A stretch of 36,093 nt of DNA from the IMG/VR virus record IMGVR_UViG_3300043420_001884, positions 1-36,093 of that record, one strand, 5' to 3'. A model generated the notes under the pieces. That model searched no databases and was not told where the DNA came from. It saw nothing but the letters and a program-made list of their open reading frames with translations. Within the stretch, counting starts at the first letter, position 1; every line of letters begins with the position of its first letter. Positions 60 to 13,018 of the stretch are shown here, piece after piece. The stretch is from a virus. The position numbers and the translations under genes are program-made.

Positions 60-1475
60 TCACATGAGGTTTTGTACTCTAACTCTTCTGTAGTATACGT
101 TAGAGTTAGTGAGAAGCTTACCCTCACCAACCTCAGCACCAGCAGCGAATGGGTTAGCAACCATGCCGTAGCGGGTCTTAAAGCCAATCTTTGGTTGGAA
201 GGTATTCTCACCAACTGCACGTACCATCTGGAGAGGTACATATGGGCAGTAGAAGAGGCCTGCATCATATGCAGAAGAACCCTTATAACCAATAACGTAA
301 TACTGAGTATCAGCTACGTTTGCTGAATATGGGTCAATATAGACCTTGTACTTACCTTGGAGAGTACCAGCAAAGGTGTTGCCAGTATCGTCTACATTAA
401 GGTTTGCGTTGAGTGCTGGGGTGTAATCAAGAACACCTGCCATGGTTAGAGCTGAAGCAACGTCAGCAGAGCAGATGATCATGTTACCCTTTCCTCTACG
501 AGTTTGCTGTGCAATTGCGTTTGCATCACGCTCGATTTGGAAAAGAAGACCTTTGAACTTCTCAACTGACCAACGACCGTTGGAGTCAACGTCGAGGTCG
601 AAAGTACCAGCAGTTGCTACGTTTGCTTGAGCACCAGGCTTAGCAACCTTATAGACAGTACGAACAACTTCACGGTTAATTTCAGCAAGAATCTCAGTTG
701 ACAAGATGTTTGCCAACTCAGCTTCTGCATTTAGACCGTGAATTGCCTTAAGGTCTTGAGCAAGCTCAAGGCTGTACTCTGCTTTCAAGGCACGGGACTT
801 AGCAGTTACAGTGACCTTCTCGATTGAGAATGCCATCTGGTTGAACTGGTTGTTGCCGTTTCCGAGGTCTTCAGACTGGGCAGTACCCATTGCCTGACCA
901 ACGTTATACTGGTTATTGCCAGCAGCAGCGTTAGCTGATTGGTTGCTTGGATCTAGAATTGATGGATTAGAACCGCCTTGAGCAGTAGAACCCATACCTA
1001 CCGCAGCATCGGTTTCATATCCGGTCAAGCTGCGAGCAGCATTCTGTCCTGAGAATGCTGAATCTACTTCATCATAGAAGGTTTCTGGACCATTCTGATC
1101 ATCTTTGCGTGAACGCATTGCGAAAATAAGACCAGTTGGACCGTTCATTGGCTGAACACCACAGATATCATATGCCATTAGATTTGGCATAGAACGTCTG
1201 ATAAGTGAAATCAGCACTGGGTCAAAACCTGCTGTTGGACCAGCGTTAAAACCTTGTCCGCTACCACCAAAACCAGCACTACCCACAGATGAGTGTGTGT
1301 GTACAGTTGGAGTTTCGCTGAGGAACTCAGCAGCCTCACGCATTTCTCTTTCTTGGTTCTCTAGCAGGATAGCGGTTACTGCTCTACGATGTGAATCTTT
1401 GATTCCATCAAGCCCTTGATAATCAAGGATGGGAGCCCACTTCTCCTGCAGATATTCTGCATTGTGCATCTGCAT
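60..1475 (-). CDS. 23: Major capsid protein gp23
   Basis: This 471-aa protein is the T4-family major capsid subunit, which forms the hexamers of the shell. The conserved block VQPMNGPTGLIFAMR (residues 107-121), preceded by SLIRRSMPNLMAYDICG, is a gp23 signature. T4 gp23 loses about 65 N-terminal residues to the gp21 protease. Here a candidate cleavage site is FLSE|T at residues 51-55, followed by a Gly-rich stretch; this assignment is inference. The start at 1475 has a good Shine-Dalgarno AGAGGT about 8 nt upstream; a second Met is at residue 3. The gene lies last in the head block, ends just before a strong terminator, and looks more GC-rich than the tail genes, as expected of the most highly expressed gene. 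Confidence 0.97.
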   Translation of the reverse strand: MQMHNAEYLQEKWAPILDYQGLDGIKDSHRRAVTAILLENQEREMREAAEFLSETPTVHTHSSVGSAGFGGSGQGFNAGPTAGFDPVLISLIRRSMPNLMAYDICGVQPMNGPTGLIFAMRSRKDDQNGPETFYDEVDSAFSGQNAARSLTGYETDAAVGMGSTAQGGSNPSILDPSNQSANAAAGNNQYNVGQAMGTAQSEDLGNGNNQFNQMAFSIEKVTVTAKSRALKAEYSLELAQDLKAIHGLNAEAELANILSTEILAEINREVVRTVYKVAKPGAQANVATAGTFDLDVDSNGRWSVEKFKGLLFQIERDANAIAQQTRRGKGNMIICSADVASALTMAGVLDYTPALNANLNVDDTGNTFAGTLQGKYKVYIDPYSANVADTQYYVIGYKGSSAYDAGLFYCPYVPLQMVRAVGENTFQPKIGFKTRYGMVANPFAAGAEVGEGKLLTNSNVYYRRVRVQNLM

Positions 1476-1526: not shown

Positions 1527-2639
1527 TCACTTTTTTGAAACTTTACCGAGTGCTGTGAGATATGCTGCCATTCTTGGAGATACTTCTTCAGTAGACTCGT
1601 AAATGTCTGCACTCTCAGTTAAATTTTCGGCAATAATTTCTTGAGCACTGGACTTTGTTGGGAAATATGATTCCCTCAGGGTTACCAGTTTCTCACGATA
1701 GTTGTCTTCACCATCAAACTCAACATTTTCTGCAAGAGAAGCGAGTTTGTCTTTCTGAGAAAGTGCTAGACCCTCAGCGACATCAGCAAAAATACCATCA
1801 GCTTTTGACTCTGCTAATCTTTGATTAAGAGCAACATTGGTTCTAATTTGCTCGTTGAGTTTTTCTTCCATTTCATCAAGTTTATCCGCCATACCCAAGA
1901 CTACATCATATTTATCTTCAGGAATTGAAACATAATGATCTTCAAAAAGACCTCTCATTCCATGTAAGAATGATTCAGTCATTTCAGTTTTAAGTCCGGT
2001 TTCTACGGCAAGTGCATTTTCTTTAATCCACTCTTCAGCAACATACTCTAGGTATGCATCGACTCTCTCTTCAAGATTTTCCTTGATTTGAGCAATCTCT
2101 TCAACTAAGATATCTTGATATCTCTCTTCAAGAGATTCTTTGATTTCTTCTACCTTAGAGTTAATTGCGGCTTCAAAAATAACTCTTGCCTTTTCTTGGA
2201 ATTCTTCAGAAAGTTCTTCACCACCAAGAAGAGCTTCAATATCCTCATCAATATCATACTCAATTGATTCTGAATCTTCTACAATTTCTTCAGTATCTTC
2301 TGCTTCTTCGCTGTACTCATCTTCGATTAATTCATCTTCAACTTCAGACTCTTCTTTTCTTACCCCAGATTGCCCTGGAGTTGAATGTGAGAGCTTTGGC
2401 ATTGGGTCCGCACCCTTTGCCTTACTGTTTACAACATCAGAAACTGTTTTGACTGAAGGCTCTTTTAATTTTGCGGAATTATCATCGGTACGATAATTCT
2501 CTGGAGTAGGACCGCCGAGATCTTCCCAAGCACCAGATTGCCCTGGAGTTGAATGTGAGAGCTTTGGCATTGGGTCTGCGGATTTTGCTCCTTTGGTTAC
2601 TACATTTTCCATTTCTTGTAAATTCTTACCAACGGACAT
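1527..2639 (-). CDS. 22: Prohead core scaffold protein gp22
   Basis: This 370-aa protein is the main internal scaffold of the prohead in T4-like phages and is normally degraded by gp21 after assembly. It is strongly acidic around residues 96-148 (runs of E and D). It then turns into long charged helices (about 150-300) likely to form coiled coils, and includes the block ALLGGEELSEEFQEKARVIF. Genes 21 and 23 flank it, the expected order. The N-terminal part has an exact duplication of DPMPKLSHSTPGQSG at residues 22-36 and 78-92, encoded by a 44-bp perfect DNA repeat. No clear Shine-Dalgarno precedes the ATG, but a perfect late-promoter octamer lies 32 nt upstream. Confidence 0.93.
   Translation of the reverse strand: MSVGKNLQEMENVVTKGAKSADPMPKLSHSTPGQSGAWEDLGGPTPENYRTDDNSAKLKEPSVKTVSDVVNSKAKGADPMPKLSHSTPGQSGVRKEESEVEDELIEDEYSEEAEDTEEIVEDSESIEYDIDEDIEALLGGEELSEEFQEKARVIFEAAINSKVEEIKESLEERYQDILVEEIAQIKENLEERVDAYLEYVAEEWIKENALAVETGLKTEMTESFLHGMRGLFEDHYVSIPEDKYDVVLGMADKLDEMEEKLNEQIRTNVALNQRLAESKADGIFADVAEGLALSQKDKLASLAENVEFDGEDNYREKLVTLRESYFPTKSSAQEIIAENLTESADIYESTEEVSPRMAAYLTALGKVSKK
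2365..2408. repeat. 44-bp direct repeat in gene 22, copy B (promoter-distal)
   Basis: These 44 bases are identical to 2533-2576. The two copies are 168 bp apart start to start, exactly 56 codons, and lie in the same reading frame. They encode the repeated DPMPKLSHSTPGQSG stretch of gp22. Confidence 0.9.
2533..2576. repeat. 44-bp direct repeat in gene 22, copy A (promoter-proximal)
   Basis: This is a perfect match to 2365-2408. The 124-bp spacer between the copies encodes a Pro/Asp-rich linker containing LGGPTPENYRTDD. Recombination between the copies would remove 56 codons without changing the frame. Confidence 0.9.
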
Positions 2640-2680: not shown

Positions 2681-3331
2681 TTATAAATTTGAGAGAAAAT
2701 TTTGGAAGAGGTTTAGCTTATGCTCTTCTAACATTTTTCTTGATACTAGAGTATTAATTCTTCTCTTTGTTTGTTCTGCAAGTTTTTCACGAAGAATACC
2801 TCCTTCCCAAACCCACTCTTTACCTTCCATAATTCCCTGAACAAATGCATCAGGTGCAGAAGGATCTGCTACAATATCTGCAGCAGTTGCGAGCATAAAG
2901 TCTTCACCAACAATTTTGTGCCCTTCATTACTCATTTGTAATGAGCCAACACCACGGGAAGACACTCCAAGAGTTACTCCTTCACTAATTAGTGATTTTG
3001 CAATCTTACCCATTGGAGTTTCAAGAAGCTGTGCCTTACCTTTAAAGTTTAATCCTTCTTGGGTTAGTGATACAATCTTGTGCGACACCCTATCAAGATT
3101 TACAGTTGGTCCATCTGGATGTCCTAATTCTCCAAGGGCACGACCCTTTGCAATGAAATTTTCATTGTATCTTTTTACCTCACGGGCAAGAGTTTGCATT
3201 GGATACATTCTTCCATTACGATTGCAAATATCTCCCTGAAGAAAAACACCTTCAATATAGAGTTTTTTATCGTTGCCTGTACCTTCAGTAATAAATTTAA
3301 CTTCCGATACTTCTTCTGTAATTAGTTTCAT
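2681..3331 (-). CDS. 21: Prohead maturation protease gp21
   Basis: This is the serine protease that cleaves scaffold and capsid proteins during prohead maturation (T4 gp21, herpesvirus-assemblin-like fold). I start it at the ATG at 3331 (MKLITEEVSEV), giving 216 aa, because the longer frame to 3406 overlaps the upstream small gene. Counted from this start, LYIEGVFLQGDICNRNGRMYP covers about residues 24-44. The active-site candidates are His71 in GELGHPDG and Ser125 in GVSSRGVGSL, which align with T4 His85 and Ser140. No good Shine-Dalgarno lies close to this ATG; a GAGGAA sits about 20 nt upstream inside the preceding gene's end. Confidence 0.92.
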   Translation of the reverse strand: MKLITEEVSEVKFITEGTGNDKKLYIEGVFLQGDICNRNGRMYPMQTLAREVKRYNENFIAKGRALGELGHPDGPTVNLDRVSHKIVSLTQEGLNFKGKAQLLETPMGKIAKSLISEGVTLGVSSRGVGSLQMSNEGHKIVGEDFMLATAADIVADPSAPDAFVQGIMEGKEWVWEGGILREKLAEQTKRRINTLVSRKMLEEHKLNLFQNFLSNL

Positions 3332-3350
3332 TTTTGTCTTTTGTATTAAT

Positions 3351-3524
3351 TTATTCCTCACTATCTTCATGATATTCAATATTTTGACCAAATAAAGATG
3401 CTGCAACTTCCGGCTTAATCATTTCAATATTTTCTGCACTTTTTGCAAAAAGTGCAGTTTTAATGGCATCAGAAATATCTGATGGTGAAGCATCTGCCGC
3501 AATCAAATCTACAATATTTTCCAT
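3351..3524 (-). CDS. Small prohead core protein, gp67-like
   Basis: This 57-aa ORF begins MENIVDLIAADASPSDISDA and ends in an acidic tail, EYHEDSEE. Its position between genes 20 and 21 is where T4 has genes 67 and 68, small prohead-core proteins that shape the scaffold. The start MENIVDLI and acidic C-terminus resemble T4 gp67 (MEDLIEAIK and an acidic tail), but the match is short. A perfect late octamer lies 28 nt upstream of the ATG. A 24-bp perfect palindrome lies within the gene. Identity as a core component is inferred from size, charge and position. Confidence 0.8.
   Translation of the reverse strand: MENIVDLIAADASPSDISDAIKTALFAKSAENIEMIKPEVAASLFGQNIEYHEDSEE
3434..3457. repeat. 24-bp perfect palindrome inside the gp67-like gene
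   Basis: The half-site CTGCACTTTTTG is followed directly by its exact reverse complement. In RNA it would fold as a 10-bp stem with a 4-nt loop. It lies in the middle of the 57-aa gene, over codons for TALFAKSAE. There is no T-tract, so it does not look like an intrinsic terminator. Confidence 0.9.
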
Positions 3525-3559: not shown

Positions 3560-5237
3560 TTTTGCCACCTTTTGGCTCTGGAATTTCAGGTGCTTGCATA
3601 CCTGTAGTTTCTATTCCAGGTTCTTGTGGTATTTCACCCATTGCGTTAGGGTCCATATCTCCACCTTCTGGTTGTGCAATTGGATTTCCATTTTCATCAA
3701 CAGGTGCATTTGGATCAGGAAGAATTCCTTTTTGTATCTCGTCATCAATTTGCATATCAATCTCAATAATTTCCAAATCAGTTTGACGTAGAATTCTCTT
3801 TCTAACATATTCTGTTGAAAAATATTTGCCAATATATGGCTCAATAGTAGCAAGAAGATTTAGTCTTCCTGAAAGCATTTCTGTCTCTTTTAATTCTGCA
3901 AATTGATTATCATACAGAAAATCATATTGAATATGATCTTCCATTTTTTTCCAATCTTCAGGTGATACAATATTTTTTAAAAGTAATTGTGTTCTTAAGA
4001 TATCATTAAACAGTCTTGAAAATCTTTTTCTAAGTCTACCTACAAATTTTGAAAACTTAAGTTCATCTCTTAAAATTTCTGAAGATCTGCCAAGATTAAA
4101 TCCATCTCCACCACCAGCAATTCTTGTTTCCGGTACTCCAAGTGATCTGTAAAGTTTCTTTTGAAAGTACTCGATATCGGAAAGTTCTCCAAGATTTTGG
4201 CCACCAGGAAGGGTAGTAATTTCTGTCCCTCTACCACCCTCTCTACGAGGTAACCAGAAATCTTCAAGCATACTCATAAACTTTCTATCATCACGCACTT
4301 CACCAGTATTTGCATCATATACTAGTTTATTGCGATAGCGAGACATAACCTCCTTAAGGTATTGCTCAGCTTTTACTTTTGGTAAATTGCCTACATCAAT
4401 ATAAAAAATTCTTCTTTCTGGTGCTCTTGATAGACGATAAATTACAAGAGAATCCTCAATCATTCTTAACTGATTGAGTGCCTTAATTGCTTTATGAAGA
4501 TAAGAAAGGCAAGTCCCATTATTTCTATCAAATAGTCCTGAGGTTACATAAGTAACTGAATCTTTTGCAATCTTGATAGATGCTTTAGGTCCTTTTCCAA
4601 ATCCACCCATTGATGGACCTTTCATTGTGTAGATAAAATATTCGTTAATCTCCGGAAAATTAAATTGCTCTTTATCTTGACCTCGCAATAAAGGATTTCC
4701 CATAGTTTTTGCATCTTTAGGATCCTTCTTTTCTTCACGAACAAATTTCATTTTCATTGGATCAATATAGCGTAATTCCTGAATTCCATCCTCAGGCTTT
4801 TTTAAATCAATTACTTTAAGATAATACAGTCTTCCATCAACATACCAACTTCTAAAAATTTCATGACTTTTTTTATCAAAATCAAGTAATTCTTTTACAT
4901 ATTTAAATTCTTCTCTAATAATTGATTTTAATTTATCACTAGCATTTAAGTTTGATAATTCAATCTCAACAGGAGAATCATACAAGTCACTAACGATAGC
5001 CTCATTCACAACATCTTCAATTGCACCATCACACTCTGGGTGCAAAGACATTTCTCTATATCTACGAATTAAATCGTACTCAGTTCTATATACACCCTCA
5101 ATATCAACATATTGACCATAAAATCCACTTTGAATATAATAGTCAACCCCGTCCTCATTATTTTGAGGAACGGGGGAAACTATTGATTTGGATTTTTTTT
5201 CACTGTCCTCAATTGAAAAACCAAAGAGTTTTGCCAT
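3555..5237 (-). CDS. 20: Portal vertex protein gp20
   Basis: This 560-aa protein (T4 gp20 is 524 aa) forms the dodecameric portal at one vertex of the head. DNA passes through it during packaging by gp17, and the gp13/gp14 neck docks on it. Family-type segments include DYYIQSGFYGQYVDIEGVYR, RYREMSLHPECDGAIEDVVNEA, a central RLSRAPERRIFYIDVGNLPK, and FWLPRREGGRGTEITTLPGG with LGVPETRI. The C-terminal 60 residues are rich in Pro, Gly and acidic residues and probably flexible. A near-consensus late octamer is 30 nt upstream. No strong Shine-Dalgarno is visible. Confidence 0.97.
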   Translation of the reverse strand: MAKLFGFSIEDSEKKSKSIVSPVPQNNEDGVDYYIQSGFYGQYVDIEGVYRTEYDLIRRYREMSLHPECDGAIEDVVNEAIVSDLYDSPVEIELSNLNASDKLKSIIREEFKYVKELLDFDKKSHEIFRSWYVDGRLYYLKVIDLKKPEDGIQELRYIDPMKMKFVREEKKDPKDAKTMGNPLLRGQDKEQFNFPEINEYFIYTMKGPSMGGFGKGPKASIKIAKDSVTYVTSGLFDRNNGTCLSYLHKAIKALNQLRMIEDSLVIYRLSRAPERRIFYIDVGNLPKVKAEQYLKEVMSRYRNKLVYDANTGEVRDDRKFMSMLEDFWLPRREGGRGTEITTLPGGQNLGELSDIEYFQKKLYRSLGVPETRIAGGGDGFNLGRSSEILRDELKFSKFVGRLRKRFSRLFNDILRTQLLLKNIVSPEDWKKMEDHIQYDFLYDNQFAELKETEMLSGRLNLLATIEPYIGKYFSTEYVRKRILRQTDLEIIEIDMQIDDEIQKGILPDPNAPVDENGNPIAQPEGGDMDPNAMGEIPQEPGIETTGMQAPEIPEPKGGKI

Positions 5238-10134: not shown

Positions 10135-10392
10135 TTATAGTATCACTGGATTATTATTTTTATCATACCTTTGATAAGTGCCGATACCAATAGGACTGTT
10201 ATTTTTATCGTGTCTTACATATGATGAAACAATTCCTGGACTGTTATTCATATCATGTCTCACATAGTCAACATTAAAATCTTCATAATAAATTGAAGAC
10301 CATCCTTCAGTTCCAGTAAAAACACCTACAGTAGTAAACCCTGGTTGAGAAACTACTGGATTATTATTCTTGTCGTGTCTAATGTAAACCAT
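10135..10392 (-). CDS. 85-aa protein with four RHDKNNNP-type repeats
   Basis: I do not recognise this family. The protein is built from four copies of a 10-residue unit, Y-x-R-[HY]-D-[KM]-N-N-[NS]-P, at residues 3-12, 43-52, 58-67 and 73-82. The last three are spaced by exactly 15 residues. Between copies 1 and 2 is a non-repetitive, aromatic-rich insert including TGTEGWSSIYYEDF. It has no signal peptide or membrane segment. It ends 15 nt before gene 17 and follows the 244-aa gene, so it is probably co-transcribed with late head and packaging genes. No clear Shine-Dalgarno is seen. It could be a small decoration or fibre element; that is a guess. Confidence 0.75.
   Translation of the reverse strand: MVYIRHDKNNNPVVSQPGFTTVGVFTGTEGWSSIYYEDFNVDYVRHDMNNSPGIVSSYVRHDKNNSPIGIGTYQRYDKNNNPVIL
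10174..10386. repeat. Degenerate tandem 45-bp repeats in the 85-aa gene
   Basis: The DNA encoding the YxRHDxNN(N/S)P units recurs with a 45-bp period over the three promoter-distal copies, plus one copy at the 5' end of the gene. On the plus strand the recurrent core resembles GGACTGTTATTTTTATCGTG. Copies differ at several bases, so this is an older or selected repeat rather than a fresh duplication. The coordinates are approximate and do not reach the fourth, most distal unit near 10145. Confidence 0.6.
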
Positions 10393-10419
10393 ATGAATAC
10401 TTAGTAATACTATTATATA

Positions 10420-11154
10420 TTAAGATAACTCATTATCTATTAATAAAATATCAAAAGCTGCTGTGTATCTTCCATTATTGGTTCTTGTAGCAACTCTCAC
10501 ATCAATATCAGATTTTTCTGGTATTTCAATAGGGAATGTGAACTTATAACTATACTGACCACCAACTCCAGCAACTTCAAATGAATGTCCGATTCTGAAT
10601 GCTAATTGACCAAAATATCTCACAAACATATTCCCTGTTCCATCAGCAGATGCTTGAGCAGTACATACACCCTGATAAAGGTATCCAGTCTTACCAGCAG
10701 GAATAGTATAAATTGCCATAAGAGTCTGACCTTTGGTGGCAGTAATCCTCAATACATCCGTTCCATTTTTAGTAAAATTCACATCACCAACATTATTGTC
10801 TCCTGATGAAATATATGCCCTGTATACACGACGAAATTGTGTAGTTCCTGCTACTGTTTGTGTACTTGATAGCGTAAAAGTATCTGATGCTGGATTAAAA
10901 TCGTTATCCAAACCAAGAACTGTTACAACTTTTCCAGCATCAGATACATTGGCAATTGAAGCAGTGATTATGCCAGAAGTAGTCCAAACACTCCAAGGAT
11001 ATAATGTATCATTTTTATCCCAAATAGTTCCAGTGGTATTTTGAGACATCGCTGGTACAGCACCAAACTTGTGAATAATTGATGCTCCACGAACTTTTCC
11101 TCTGGAAACATTTAAATCAAATTGTTCATCCCAAATATAACTTTTAAAAGGCAT
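10420..11154 (-). CDS. Beta-rich 244-aa virion-associated protein of unknown function
   Basis: I recall similar proteins of unknown function in T4-like cyanophages, with the start SYIWDEQFDLNVSRGKVRGA followed by IHKFGAVPAMS, but assign no function. The sequence alternates short beta-like strands with Gly/Thr turns. Recognisable segments are GTIWDKNDTLYPW (about 43-55), TTQFRRVYRAYISSGDNNVG, TATKGQTLMAIYTIPAGKTGYLY and a C-terminal FPIEIPEKSDIDVRV. There is no signal peptide or membrane segment. A soluble beta-sandwich or jelly-roll virion component is plausible, for example a capsid decoration or an internal head protein. The gene lies 3 nt after the 105-aa gene, so the two are probably translated from the same message. 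Confidence 0.85.
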   Translation of the reverse strand: MPFKSYIWDEQFDLNVSRGKVRGASIIHKFGAVPAMSQNTTGTIWDKNDTLYPWSVWTTSGIITASIANVSDAGKVVTVLGLDNDFNPASDTFTLSSTQTVAGTTQFRRVYRAYISSGDNNVGDVNFTKNGTDVLRITATKGQTLMAIYTIPAGKTGYLYQGVCTAQASADGTGNMFVRYFGQLAFRIGHSFEVAGVGGQYSYKFTFPIEIPEKSDIDVRVATRTNNGRYTAAFDILLIDNELS

Positions 11155-11157
11155 AAT

Positions 11158-11475
11158 TTAAATCCACTCTAATTTTGCGGGATGATATCTTTTTGAGTTT
11201 GAAATGTTTAAATTTGATTTTGGTGTTGCTGGATATATGTTATGTACGATTGCACCCGGATATTCCCCTTGCAATTGCTCTGCAAGACCTTGTTTTGAAG
11301 GAATTCCTTCAGAAACTAATTCCAGTCTATAAATGCTACCCATCCAAGTTATATCTGCAACATAACTCTCACCAACTTGTTGTTGTGTTGGTTCAGAACT
11401 GTTGATATAAAGATTTCCGTTGAAATCACCTTGTATATTTACCGCTTCTGATAGGAACTGTTTAAAGGATTTCAT
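11158..11475 (-). CDS. Small protein with capsid-targeting-like N-terminus
   Basis: I start this at the ATG at 11475 (105 aa) rather than the GTG at 11487, because the protein then begins MKSFKQFLSEA. T4 internal head proteins begin with a 10-residue capsid-targeting sequence, MKTYQEFIAE, which gp21 removes by cutting after the Glu and before Ala. The first 11 residues here match that pattern in length, charge and cleavage residues (FLSE|A). The rest is a compact alpha/beta domain with SYVADITWMGSIYRLELVSE and LAEQLQGEYPGAIVHNIYP. The inferred role is a protein packaged in the head; its activity is unknown. The start lies 5 nt after the preceding gene's stop codon. Confidence 0.82.
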   Translation of the reverse strand: MKSFKQFLSEAVNIQGDFNGNLYINSSEPTQQQVGESYVADITWMGSIYRLELVSEGIPSKQGLAEQLQGEYPGAIVHNIYPATPKSNLNISNSKRYHPAKLEWI

Positions 11476-11480
11476 TCTAA

Positions 11481-12563
11481 TCACCACTTAACTTCGTTGG
11501 CCCAGTATGCTGGGAACATTTTACCCTTAGCAATATTCTCAGCATGTCTTTCTTTAAATCCATTTCTTCTATTTGCATCTGCTTCAGATTCTCCTTCTTT
11601 TTTAGGAGAACCCTTCACACCAACCTGCCCGAAACGAATAATCTTTTCCTCCCCACCTTCACACGCTTTAACAACATGAGACTTTCCTTGCTCACCAGAA
11701 CCATGTGCTTGTGCTTTAGGGGAGTTGCATTTCATTGAGGACTTATCAATCGCTTCTTGCATGAATTGTCCAAAAGTTTTAAAATCATAATGTGCCAGAT
11801 CAGTTTTGTTTTTTCTTTTTACCAATGGCAATTTTGGTCCAGTTTTGTTTAAAAATGTTTCTTTTTCATATGGATTTGTGGTTTCTTTTCCTTTATTGTA
11901 TATTTTTTGAATTTTCTGCACATTTTTATGTCCGGGTCCAATATCAAAACTAATACCTTCATTATGCATTTCACCACTGTCAGCGTAGTCTGCTGCAGTG
12001 TCGATATAATCTGCTGCCCTTGTAATCTTTGATTGTACCCAAGCGGGAAGATTACCTTCCCCCTTGACTTTTCCTTTTAGTCTCTTTGCTGCAGAAATAA
12101 TTTTTGAAATTTCTGCCCTTGCCATTGAGTGCTCATGATCCCTTTCTTCCTTCATAGCACGTAGTCTCCTTCTTTCCTCATCTTGGCGTGCAATCTGGGC
12201 GTCAATTAATTTTTTTGCTTGTTCTTTAGTCTTTTTAGAAGAAACCCATCTATCATCGGCATTTGGCTTAGGTCTACGCCTTCTCTTATGTGGCAAAAGT
12301 AAAAATATTTCATCAATTGAAGATTCTTCATCAACACAATTTGGAACTTCTTTTCCACCCTCCATTTTAGTAGATGGGTTTCCAATTTTTTTGTTTTTCC
12401 AACACTTACTAGCACCTACGTTTTTTCTTGCTTGCGTAAGTCCTTCTCCAATATCTAAAGTTTCTGGATATCCTTTTTCTCCTGGACGGGAAGCTCTTTC
12501 TCCACGTCTTCTTTTTGCATGAATATTATCCCACAAACCTTTTTTCTTTCCCTCAGTAATCAT
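11481..12563 (-). CDS. Modular basic protein, possible packaged internal protein
   Basis: This protein is about 360 aa; residue numbers here count from the alternative GTG at 12572. I prefer the ATG at 12563, though neither start has a clear ribosome-binding site. Four segments are visible. Residues 9-40 hold KKGLWDNIHAKRRRGER and RPGEKGYPETL. Residues 54-83 hold CWKNKKIGNPSTKMEGGKEVPNCV with two Cys. Residues 96-170 are a very basic, charged helix. Residues 174-200 hold NLPAWVQSKITRAADYIDTA. The C-terminal domain (279-363) has SMKCNSPK, KACEGGEEKIIRFGQVGVKG and KMFPAYWANEVKW. These pieces recur separately in marine T4-like phage proteins as I remember them. Just before the C-terminal domain, FKTFGQFMQEA (264-274) resembles a capsid-targeting sequence. 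The strong positive charge suggests DNA contact; the function is unknown. Confidence 0.82.
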   Translation of the reverse strand: MITEGKKKGLWDNIHAKRRRGERASRPGEKGYPETLDIGEGLTQARKNVGASKCWKNKKIGNPSTKMEGGKEVPNCVDEESSIDEIFLLLPHKRRRRPKPNADDRWVSSKKTKEQAKKLIDAQIARQDEERRRLRAMKEERDHEHSMARAEISKIISAAKRLKGKVKGEGNLPAWVQSKITRAADYIDTAADYADSGEMHNEGISFDIGPGHKNVQKIQKIYNKGKETTNPYEKETFLNKTGPKLPLVKRKNKTDLAHYDFKTFGQFMQEAIDKSSMKCNSPKAQAHGSGEQGKSHVVKACEGGEEKIIRFGQVGVKGSPKKEGESEADANRRNGFKERHAENIAKGKMFPAYWANEVKW

Positions 12564-12586
12564 CTTCGCCACAGTCGAAACTACTT

Positions 12587-13018
12587 TTACTCTTTATTAT
12601 TTAGAAAATTTGTTTTAAGATTTTTAAGAAGTTCTGATGTTGATCCAATAAAAACTGCATTATTTGTGACAGAATTTGGTCCTTTTTGAGTTCTATCTTC
12701 ATCAAGGTCTTTCATTTTCTTTTGAAGATCTACTAGTTTATCTGTAACGTCACCAATATTTTTAATTAACTGTCCAGCAACTTCATATGCCCTAGGGCTA
12801 TCACCTTCTCCAGCAAGTTCTAAAATGCCATTGACTGCTTCTTGACCCTTTTCAATAAGAGAATATAAATTTGCTCTTGTATACTCATAATCTTTTTTTA
12901 TATCAATTTCAATTTGTGTTGATTCAATTTTTTTTATTTCTGTTTGTGAAGATTCTATTTCAACAATAGAAGATTCTATGTTTAGGGCTTTATCGATAGG
13001 ATCATAATTTTTTGTCAT
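12587..13018 (-). CDS. 16: Terminase small subunit gp16
   Basis: This 143-aa protein regulates the packaging motor and recognises DNA before gp17 takes over. The pattern matches T4 gp16: a helical centre with GDSPRAYEVAGQLIKNIGDV (T4 has DSPRHMEVFATLM), then LQKKMKDL, and a C-terminus NNAVFIGSTSELLKNLK (T4 has NATVFMGSPTELMDEI). The N-terminal 45 residues carry repeated I-E-S-x-Q-x-E-I units and probably form a helix of low complexity. Gene 15 ends 6 nt upstream. T4 gp16 is 164 aa, so the length fits. Confidence 0.9.
   Translation of the reverse strand: MTKNYDPIDKALNIESSIVEIESSQTEIKKIESTQIEIDIKKDYEYTRANLYSLIEKGQEAVNGILELAGEGDSPRAYEVAGQLIKNIGDVTDKLVDLQKKMKDLDEDRTQKGPNSVTNNAVFIGSTSELLKNLKTNFLNNKE

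Follow-up and report, generated by a model that had tools for sequence, protein, structure and literature searches.

The locus at positions 11158-11475 of the IMG/VR virus record IMGVR_UViG_3300043420_001884 raises the question whether a small phage protein is carried into the head by the same N-terminal address as the internal proteins IPI-IPIII of T4. The stretch analysed (36,093 nucleotides, positions 1 to 36,093 of the record; hereafter the window) is a piece of a T4-like cyanophage whose relatives are Kyanoviridae, with its virion operon on the minus strand. A first-pass annotation had pointed out an open reading frame beginning MKSFKQFLSEA, and this frame was indeed read on the minus strand, with ATG at 11473-11475 and stop codon at 11158-11160. 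Its product, hereafter the target, has 105 amino acids and starts MKSFKQFLSEAVNIQGDF. A GTG at 11487 offers an alternative, longer start, yet M1 of the ATG form is invariant across 40 aligned homologues. Our analysis indicates that the target is probably a capsid-targeted internal or prohead-core protein, cut by prohead protease gp21 after Glu10 to leave an acidic remainder of about 95 amino acids. Its features are the following:

11158..11475, minus strand: target gene, 105 amino acids, PHROG 1742 family (phrog_1742, E 1.8e-42; 139 cyanophage records)
11446..11475, minus strand: putative capsid-targeting sequence (leader) MKSFKQFLSE, residues 1-10, with predicted gp21 cut after Glu10 (homologue conservation and mutagenesis of the T4 capsid-targeting sequence, PMC9026906)
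11221..11379, minus strand: predicted beta-beta-alpha-beta domain, approximately residues 33-85 (AlphaFold2 model, high confidence for residues 41-80)

gp21 cleaves after L/I-x-E. The T4-type targeting sequence with a gp21-type [LI]xE site followed by Ala, suspected in the first-pass annotation, held up: the residue positions fit, the likeness exceeds permutation chance and gp21 is encoded by the same phage. In T4 IPIII packaging needs no more than the first ten residues, of which 4 and 7 govern targeting and 8 and 10 processing (PMC9026906). These same positions, 4, 7, 8 and 10, are nearly fixed in the target family.

We wondered how far the leader is conserved among homologues. The PHROG 1742 profile, whose family has no assigned function, matches the target at full length (residues 1-99); a Pfam search of the protein found no domain. 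Homologues were detected by tblastn in 139 public phage records, cyanophages without exception, and at least 488 IMG/VR stretches carry the family. The leader is kept in 83 of 83 sequences of a first scan and varies only slightly among the 92 distinct sequences of two scans, both of which were seeded with the peptide MKSFKQFL and may thus be biased toward leader-bearing sequences. With an unseeded tblastn search against phage records, the alignment starts from residue 1 in nearly all records listed. Across 73 distinct 33-nucleotide versions of the leader from relatives, synonymous codons vary and positions 5, 6 and 9 are variable, while K2, F/Y4, F7, I/L/M8 and E10 are kept. Since codons vary while key residues stay, the leader is selected at the protein level. 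Homologues devoid of the tag had been named beforehand as a finding that would speak against targeting. All intact stand-alone homologues examined carry it; the full leader is missing only from distant relatives that carry the domain within a larger protein, and these keep a short L-x-E segment. The alignment proposed in the first-pass annotation thus bears out conservation of the first ten residues, which are moreover portable apart from the domain, as unrelated proteins carry them.

To estimate how often such a sequence arises by chance, a rule derived from T4, M[KRNQ]x[FYL]xx[FYL][ILMVF]xE, was applied to every plausible start in T4, S-SCSM1, S-SZBM1 and S-CREM2. It retrieved 3-6 candidate starts per genome, whereas 500 residue-class permutations of the rule average 0.13-0.19 (maximum 2) and none equals the observed number. 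In T4, taken as positive control, ipII, ipIII and gene 61.1 were recovered. The S-SCSM1 matches are the target orthologue, an NMNAT and one unannotated frame; those of S-SZBM1 are the target orthologue, SSZBM1_192 and two unannotated starts; those of S-CREM2 are gp6, gp13, gp14, gp136, gp154 and gp175. T4 gene 61.1 (L219:18966-19130) begins with the leader-like MKTFKEFIKED and may encode a further T4 internal protein.

Using the back-translated leader pattern as query, at least 120 matches were retrieved from IMG/VR. Among the matches listed, 82 leaders in 80 fetched loci were inspected: 80 open a reading frame of at least 40 amino acids, whereas the remaining two run off the end of their contig. 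Once the leader is removed, these 80 tagged proteins fall into 37 groups unrelated in sequence, including cytidylyltransferase-like, Zeta-toxin/AAA-kinase, DUF6267, DUF5661, GNAT, SET and methyltransferase-like proteins, and in 75 of the 80 loci T4 or cyanophage homologues are found outside the tagged gene. A codon-permuted control pattern gave 33 matches over the whole IMG/VR collection, and 30 of these lie in frames of under 42 amino acids. Chance likeness to the T4 leader was rejected on the basis of the permuted-rule and permuted-DNA controls. The leader behaves as an exchangeable module, portable between unrelated proteins. On two viral contigs (L118:3078-3539 and L116:4149-4529) it stands on a SET-domain protein and a GNAT acetyltransferase-like protein, respectively, which are candidate head-borne enzymes.

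Further, we compared the presence of the leader with published virion proteomes. Table 3 of the S-CREM2 study lists 52 virion proteins determined by mass spectrometry (PMC10665884). Five of the six tagged coding sequences of this phage are among those detected (Fisher p = 0.003): gp6 (SAM hydrolase), gp14 (kinase), gp154 (cytidylyltransferase) and two proteins of unknown function, gp13 and gp136. When three proteomes are pooled, strictly tagged coding sequences are detected or labelled as virion proteins in 6 of 10 cases versus about 17% of the rest (p = 0.003; the totals, 127 of 719, are approximate). In S-CREM2, the leader is thus associated with detection in purified virions. We rejected the idea that the exact leader marks every packaged protein of S-CREM2, since many detected non-structural proteins are without it. 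S-CREM1 also encodes a target orthologue; its record bears no virion-protein marks and was not used.

The enzymes in this set deserve closer description. The virion-detected NMNAT of S-SCSM1 (SSCSM1_91; L086:38819-40048; PMC9602691) begins MKSFLQFLKE followed by Ala, and the leader is present in 47 of 47 of its relatives (L319-L366), which suggests that NAD-related enzymes are targeted to the head. SSZBM1_140, a detected cytidylyltransferase, has a leader one residue shorter (MRFRQFIIE, then Ala), and that of SCREM2_gp154 reads MKNFSSFLTE, then Ala. These virion-associated enzymes resemble the target in the kind of leader but are nucleotidyltransferases with unrelated mature sequence. In S-CREM2 (L211), the leader-bearing, virion-detected products of 3837-5081, 10310-10546 and 10579-12846 are a SAM hydrolase, a 78-residue protein of unknown function and an APH-like kinase. 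The Cas9-like gp12 of the same phage (7704-10313), also virion-detected, contains a displaced version of the leader, LRFASFMAE followed by Ala, at residues 17-25; the codon of its Leu is CTG, which casts doubt on an alternative start at this point.

What remains after the predicted cut was examined by structure prediction, as had been proposed in the first-pass annotation for residues 11-105. The AlphaFold2 model (40 sequences) gives this part a beta-beta-alpha-beta domain whose residues 41-80 are modelled confidently (block means 85-93), with strands at 36-44 and 47-55, a helix at 61-71 and a third strand at 76-82; leader and linker are of low confidence. A second [LI]xE-like site, LAE at residues 64-66, lies within the predicted helix. 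The best match of a PDB sequence search is non-significant (E 0.53), Foldseek gave no PDB match at E <= 0.001, and the VIA-align neighbours of the model, at Z 5-6, are tied among T7 Gp2, ribosomal proteins and others. Because PDB fold matches are non-significant and Z values tied, no function was taken from the fold. Among viral models, significant matches include an S-SCSM1 virion protein and DUF6321 proteins of cyanophages. The domain also occurs inside modular proteins (hhalign probability 97.4, E 1.3e-11). Embedded copies are found in SSCSM1_29, which is labelled a virion protein, and in S-B43; in proteins of S-8S53 and S-PRM1 the copy is N-terminal, preceded by MANLAE or MGLLSE, and in polyproteins with a leader of their own (L114, L094, L156, L152) it is C-terminal. 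In SSCSM1_29, a DUF6321-type modular virion protein, the divergent copy follows an [LI]xE site, whereas the target consists of one module only and has a leader of its own.

The gene lies in the minus-strand virion operon, whose order is gp23, gp22, gp21, one small gene, gp20, gp19, gp18, gp17, two genes of small or medium size, the target, a modular protein of 363 amino acids, gp16 and onwards. The target thus sits between gp16 and gp17. This order recurs in other loci: a DUF6321 module ends at most 60 nucleotides upstream in 54 of them, and gp17 lies at most 3 kb downstream in 51. The features of this operon that bear on targeting and processing are:

2681..3334, minus strand: gp21 prohead protease, Peptidase_S77 (E 1.7e-35; ALGELGHP and GVSSRG motifs aligned with T4 gp21)
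1527..2639, minus strand: gp22 scaffold (core) protein, presumed partner of the leader by T4 analogy (profile match)
60..1475, minus strand: gp23 major capsid protein, with candidate gp21 site FLSE at residues 51-54 (profile matches)
11481..12572, minus strand: modular protein, 363 amino acids, directly upstream of the target, a candidate core polyprotein (profile match and module-junction analysis)
11754..11780, minus strand: internal leader-like site KTFGQFMQE, then Ala, before the C-terminal module (phrog_7595) of the 363-residue protein (sequence)

The first-pass annotation had drawn attention to the FLSE of gp23 as a counterpart of the target site; the motif is present at these residues in frame 60-1475, and the residue after it is Thr, not Ala. 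Near several gene starts of the operon (minus strand, e.g. 16131, 8408, 3560, 2679) we noted TATAAATA resembling T4-type late promoters. The 85-residue protein adjoining gp17 (10135-10392, minus strand, phrog_17325) consists in part of repeats of a YxRHDKNNNP-type unit.

We wondered if the modular neighbour is subject to the same processing. In 33 of 36 distinct fused contexts, the junction of the phrog_7595-type module carries [LIVM]xE[AGS], as against 1.5 expected in random windows; the full KTF-type site is found in 8 of the 36, the type of the present window included. Judged by sequence, this supports the neighbour being a core polyprotein that gp21 would cut into modules. It also places the target among core-targeted modules. 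A large modular protein of another phage, S-SZBM1_194 (L214:23252-25375), contains an internal FITYREFIAE followed by Gly, near the T4 leader MKTYQEFIAE.

By analogy with T4, a simple course of events can be proposed. Residues 1-10 would bind the assembling scaffold core and thereby carry the target into the prohead; gp21 would then cut after Glu10; and an acidic protein of about 95 amino acids, built around the small beta-beta-alpha-beta domain, would remain. We infer core binding, cleavage and the fate of the mature domain, which may stay and enter the host or leave during maturation. That the target is addressed to the prohead is highly probable, and its cleavage after Glu10 is likely. Retention of the mature domain in the virion is slightly favoured, and action inside the host is possible but doubtful. 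T4 and the present statistics together make it very probable that the leader works in capsid targeting and that Glu10 is a gp21 site.

Several observations weigh against this interpretation. The residue after Glu10 is Ser, not Ala, in most homologues. The mature family is acidic, with a median isoelectric point of 5.1 (4.5-6.2) versus 9.0-9.7 for T4 IPI-III. The S-SCSM1 orthologue, SSCSM1_30, has no virion-protein label although both its neighbours have one. The 30 proteins detected in S-SZBM1 virions do not include the orthologue of that phage, SSZBM1_191, although six usable tryptic peptides are predicted for it, nor do they include the tagged SSZBM1_192. Since S-SCSM1 proteins as small as 61-93 amino acids carry the label, a high copy number of SSCSM1_30 in the virion is unlikely, with the caveat that it yields two good tryptic peptides only.

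These points bear differently on the conceivable roles of the target. It might be a head-assembly (core) factor that, after targeting and processing, mostly disappears from the mature head as pieces of T4 gp22, gp67 and gp68 do, or that persists there in few copies; it would then act on the assembly of the capsid or the packaging of DNA and not on the host. We give this somewhat less than an even chance. The location next to a modular virion protein, with gp16 and gp17 on either side (DUF6321 module and gp17 in the 54 and 51 loci mentioned), the missing reports from S-SCSM1 and S-SZBM1 virions, and the recurrence of the domain in modular proteins of relatives, with neighbour-type junctions so rich in [LIVM]xE[AGS], all agree with it. 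On the contrary, each of the T4 proteins gp22, gp67 and gp68 has several cut sites, whereas the target has one at its leader, as internal proteins do, plus LAE at 64-66. The place of gp67 and gp68, between gp20 and gp21, is taken in the window not by the target but by another small gene (3351-3524). The injected effector imagined in the first-pass annotation, whose mature domain would stay in the head, enter Synechococcus with the DNA and act on a host target (e.g. nuclease or transcription machinery) as T4 IPI-III do, is a tentative alternative. In its favour, the leader is the same as that of the T4 proteins, tagged enzymes found in virions (SAM hydrolase, kinase, NMNAT/cytidylyltransferase) could plausibly act on the host, the family is confined to cyanophages, and T4 Ip1-3, which have only the leader in common, inhibit GmrSD enzymes (PMC12373910). 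The effector part fares less well: orthologues are unreported in two virion proteomes, the gene is conserved and syntenic beside head genes instead of lying in a hypervariable locus, and the mature protein is acidic with no recognised effector fold. Given conservation, synteny and the two negative proteomes, we lean slightly toward a core or low-copy role of the mature target; injection may still occur, considering the virion-detected tagged enzymes.

Two other explanations are far less probable. The N-terminus could be a conserved helix that serves some other purpose, in regulation or protein interaction, and resembles the T4 leader by coincidence. The two negative proteomes would agree with this, but both permutation controls, the occurrence of one and the same leader in 37 unrelated groups, nearly all of them in T4-like surroundings, and the virion detection of tagged S-CREM2 proteins render it improbable. 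Even less credible is a binder of host RNA polymerase of the T7 Gp2 type. The top structural neighbours do include T7 Gp2 (Z 5.8, root-mean-square deviation 2.5, 50 residues) and the RNA polymerase-interacting YkzG (Z 4.5); however, a Z below 8 carries no information for so small a beta-beta-alpha-beta fold, ribosomal proteins of no relation score equally, and Foldseek found no PDB match at the threshold given above.

A capsid-targeted internal or prohead-core protein therefore has its closest known counterpart in T4 IPI-IPIII. They share with the target the ten-residue leader (aromatic residues 4 and 7, hydrophobic residue 8, Glu10), small size and gp21 in the same phage, and, as in the tagged cyanophage set, their mature parts are unrelated between families. 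They differ in being basic and variable, whereas the target is acidic, conserved and syntenic near gp17, with its domain also embedded in neighbouring virion polyproteins of relatives; and they are virion proteins, whereas orthologues of the target are unreported in the S-SCSM1 and S-SZBM1 virion proteomes. For PHROG 1742, the capsid-targeting reading is new here. The T4 leader is already known. In the literature searched we found no account of how widely it occurs among ocean T4-like phages, of virion-detected cyanophage enzymes that carry it, or of its link to core polyprotein modules. That search, with incomplete coverage and hence priority unproved, turned up only a T4 review on the leader in cyanophages, and the exact T4 leader sequence is absent from the text searched.

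Somewhat more likely than not, the T4 capsid-targeting leader is a general cargo address in ocean T4-like phages, with PHROG 1742 as a conserved small member and gp21 also freeing cargo modules from core polyproteins. If this is true, scanning for MK[STN][FY]xx[FY][ILM]xE followed by [ASG] predicts a large set of head-borne cargo, comprising NMNAT, SAM hydrolase, kinases, GNAT, SET, methyltransferase-like and DUF6267 proteins and many unknowns. Phage proteins that enter the host with DNA are largely unknown beyond a few model phages, and a leader readable from sequence and tied to virion detection would allow cargo prediction across a very abundant group of ocean viruses. It would also account for how the puzzling metabolic enzymes of cyanophage virions (NMNAT, SAM hydrolase, kinases) are targeted, and the role of the conserved PHROG 1742 family would become directly testable.
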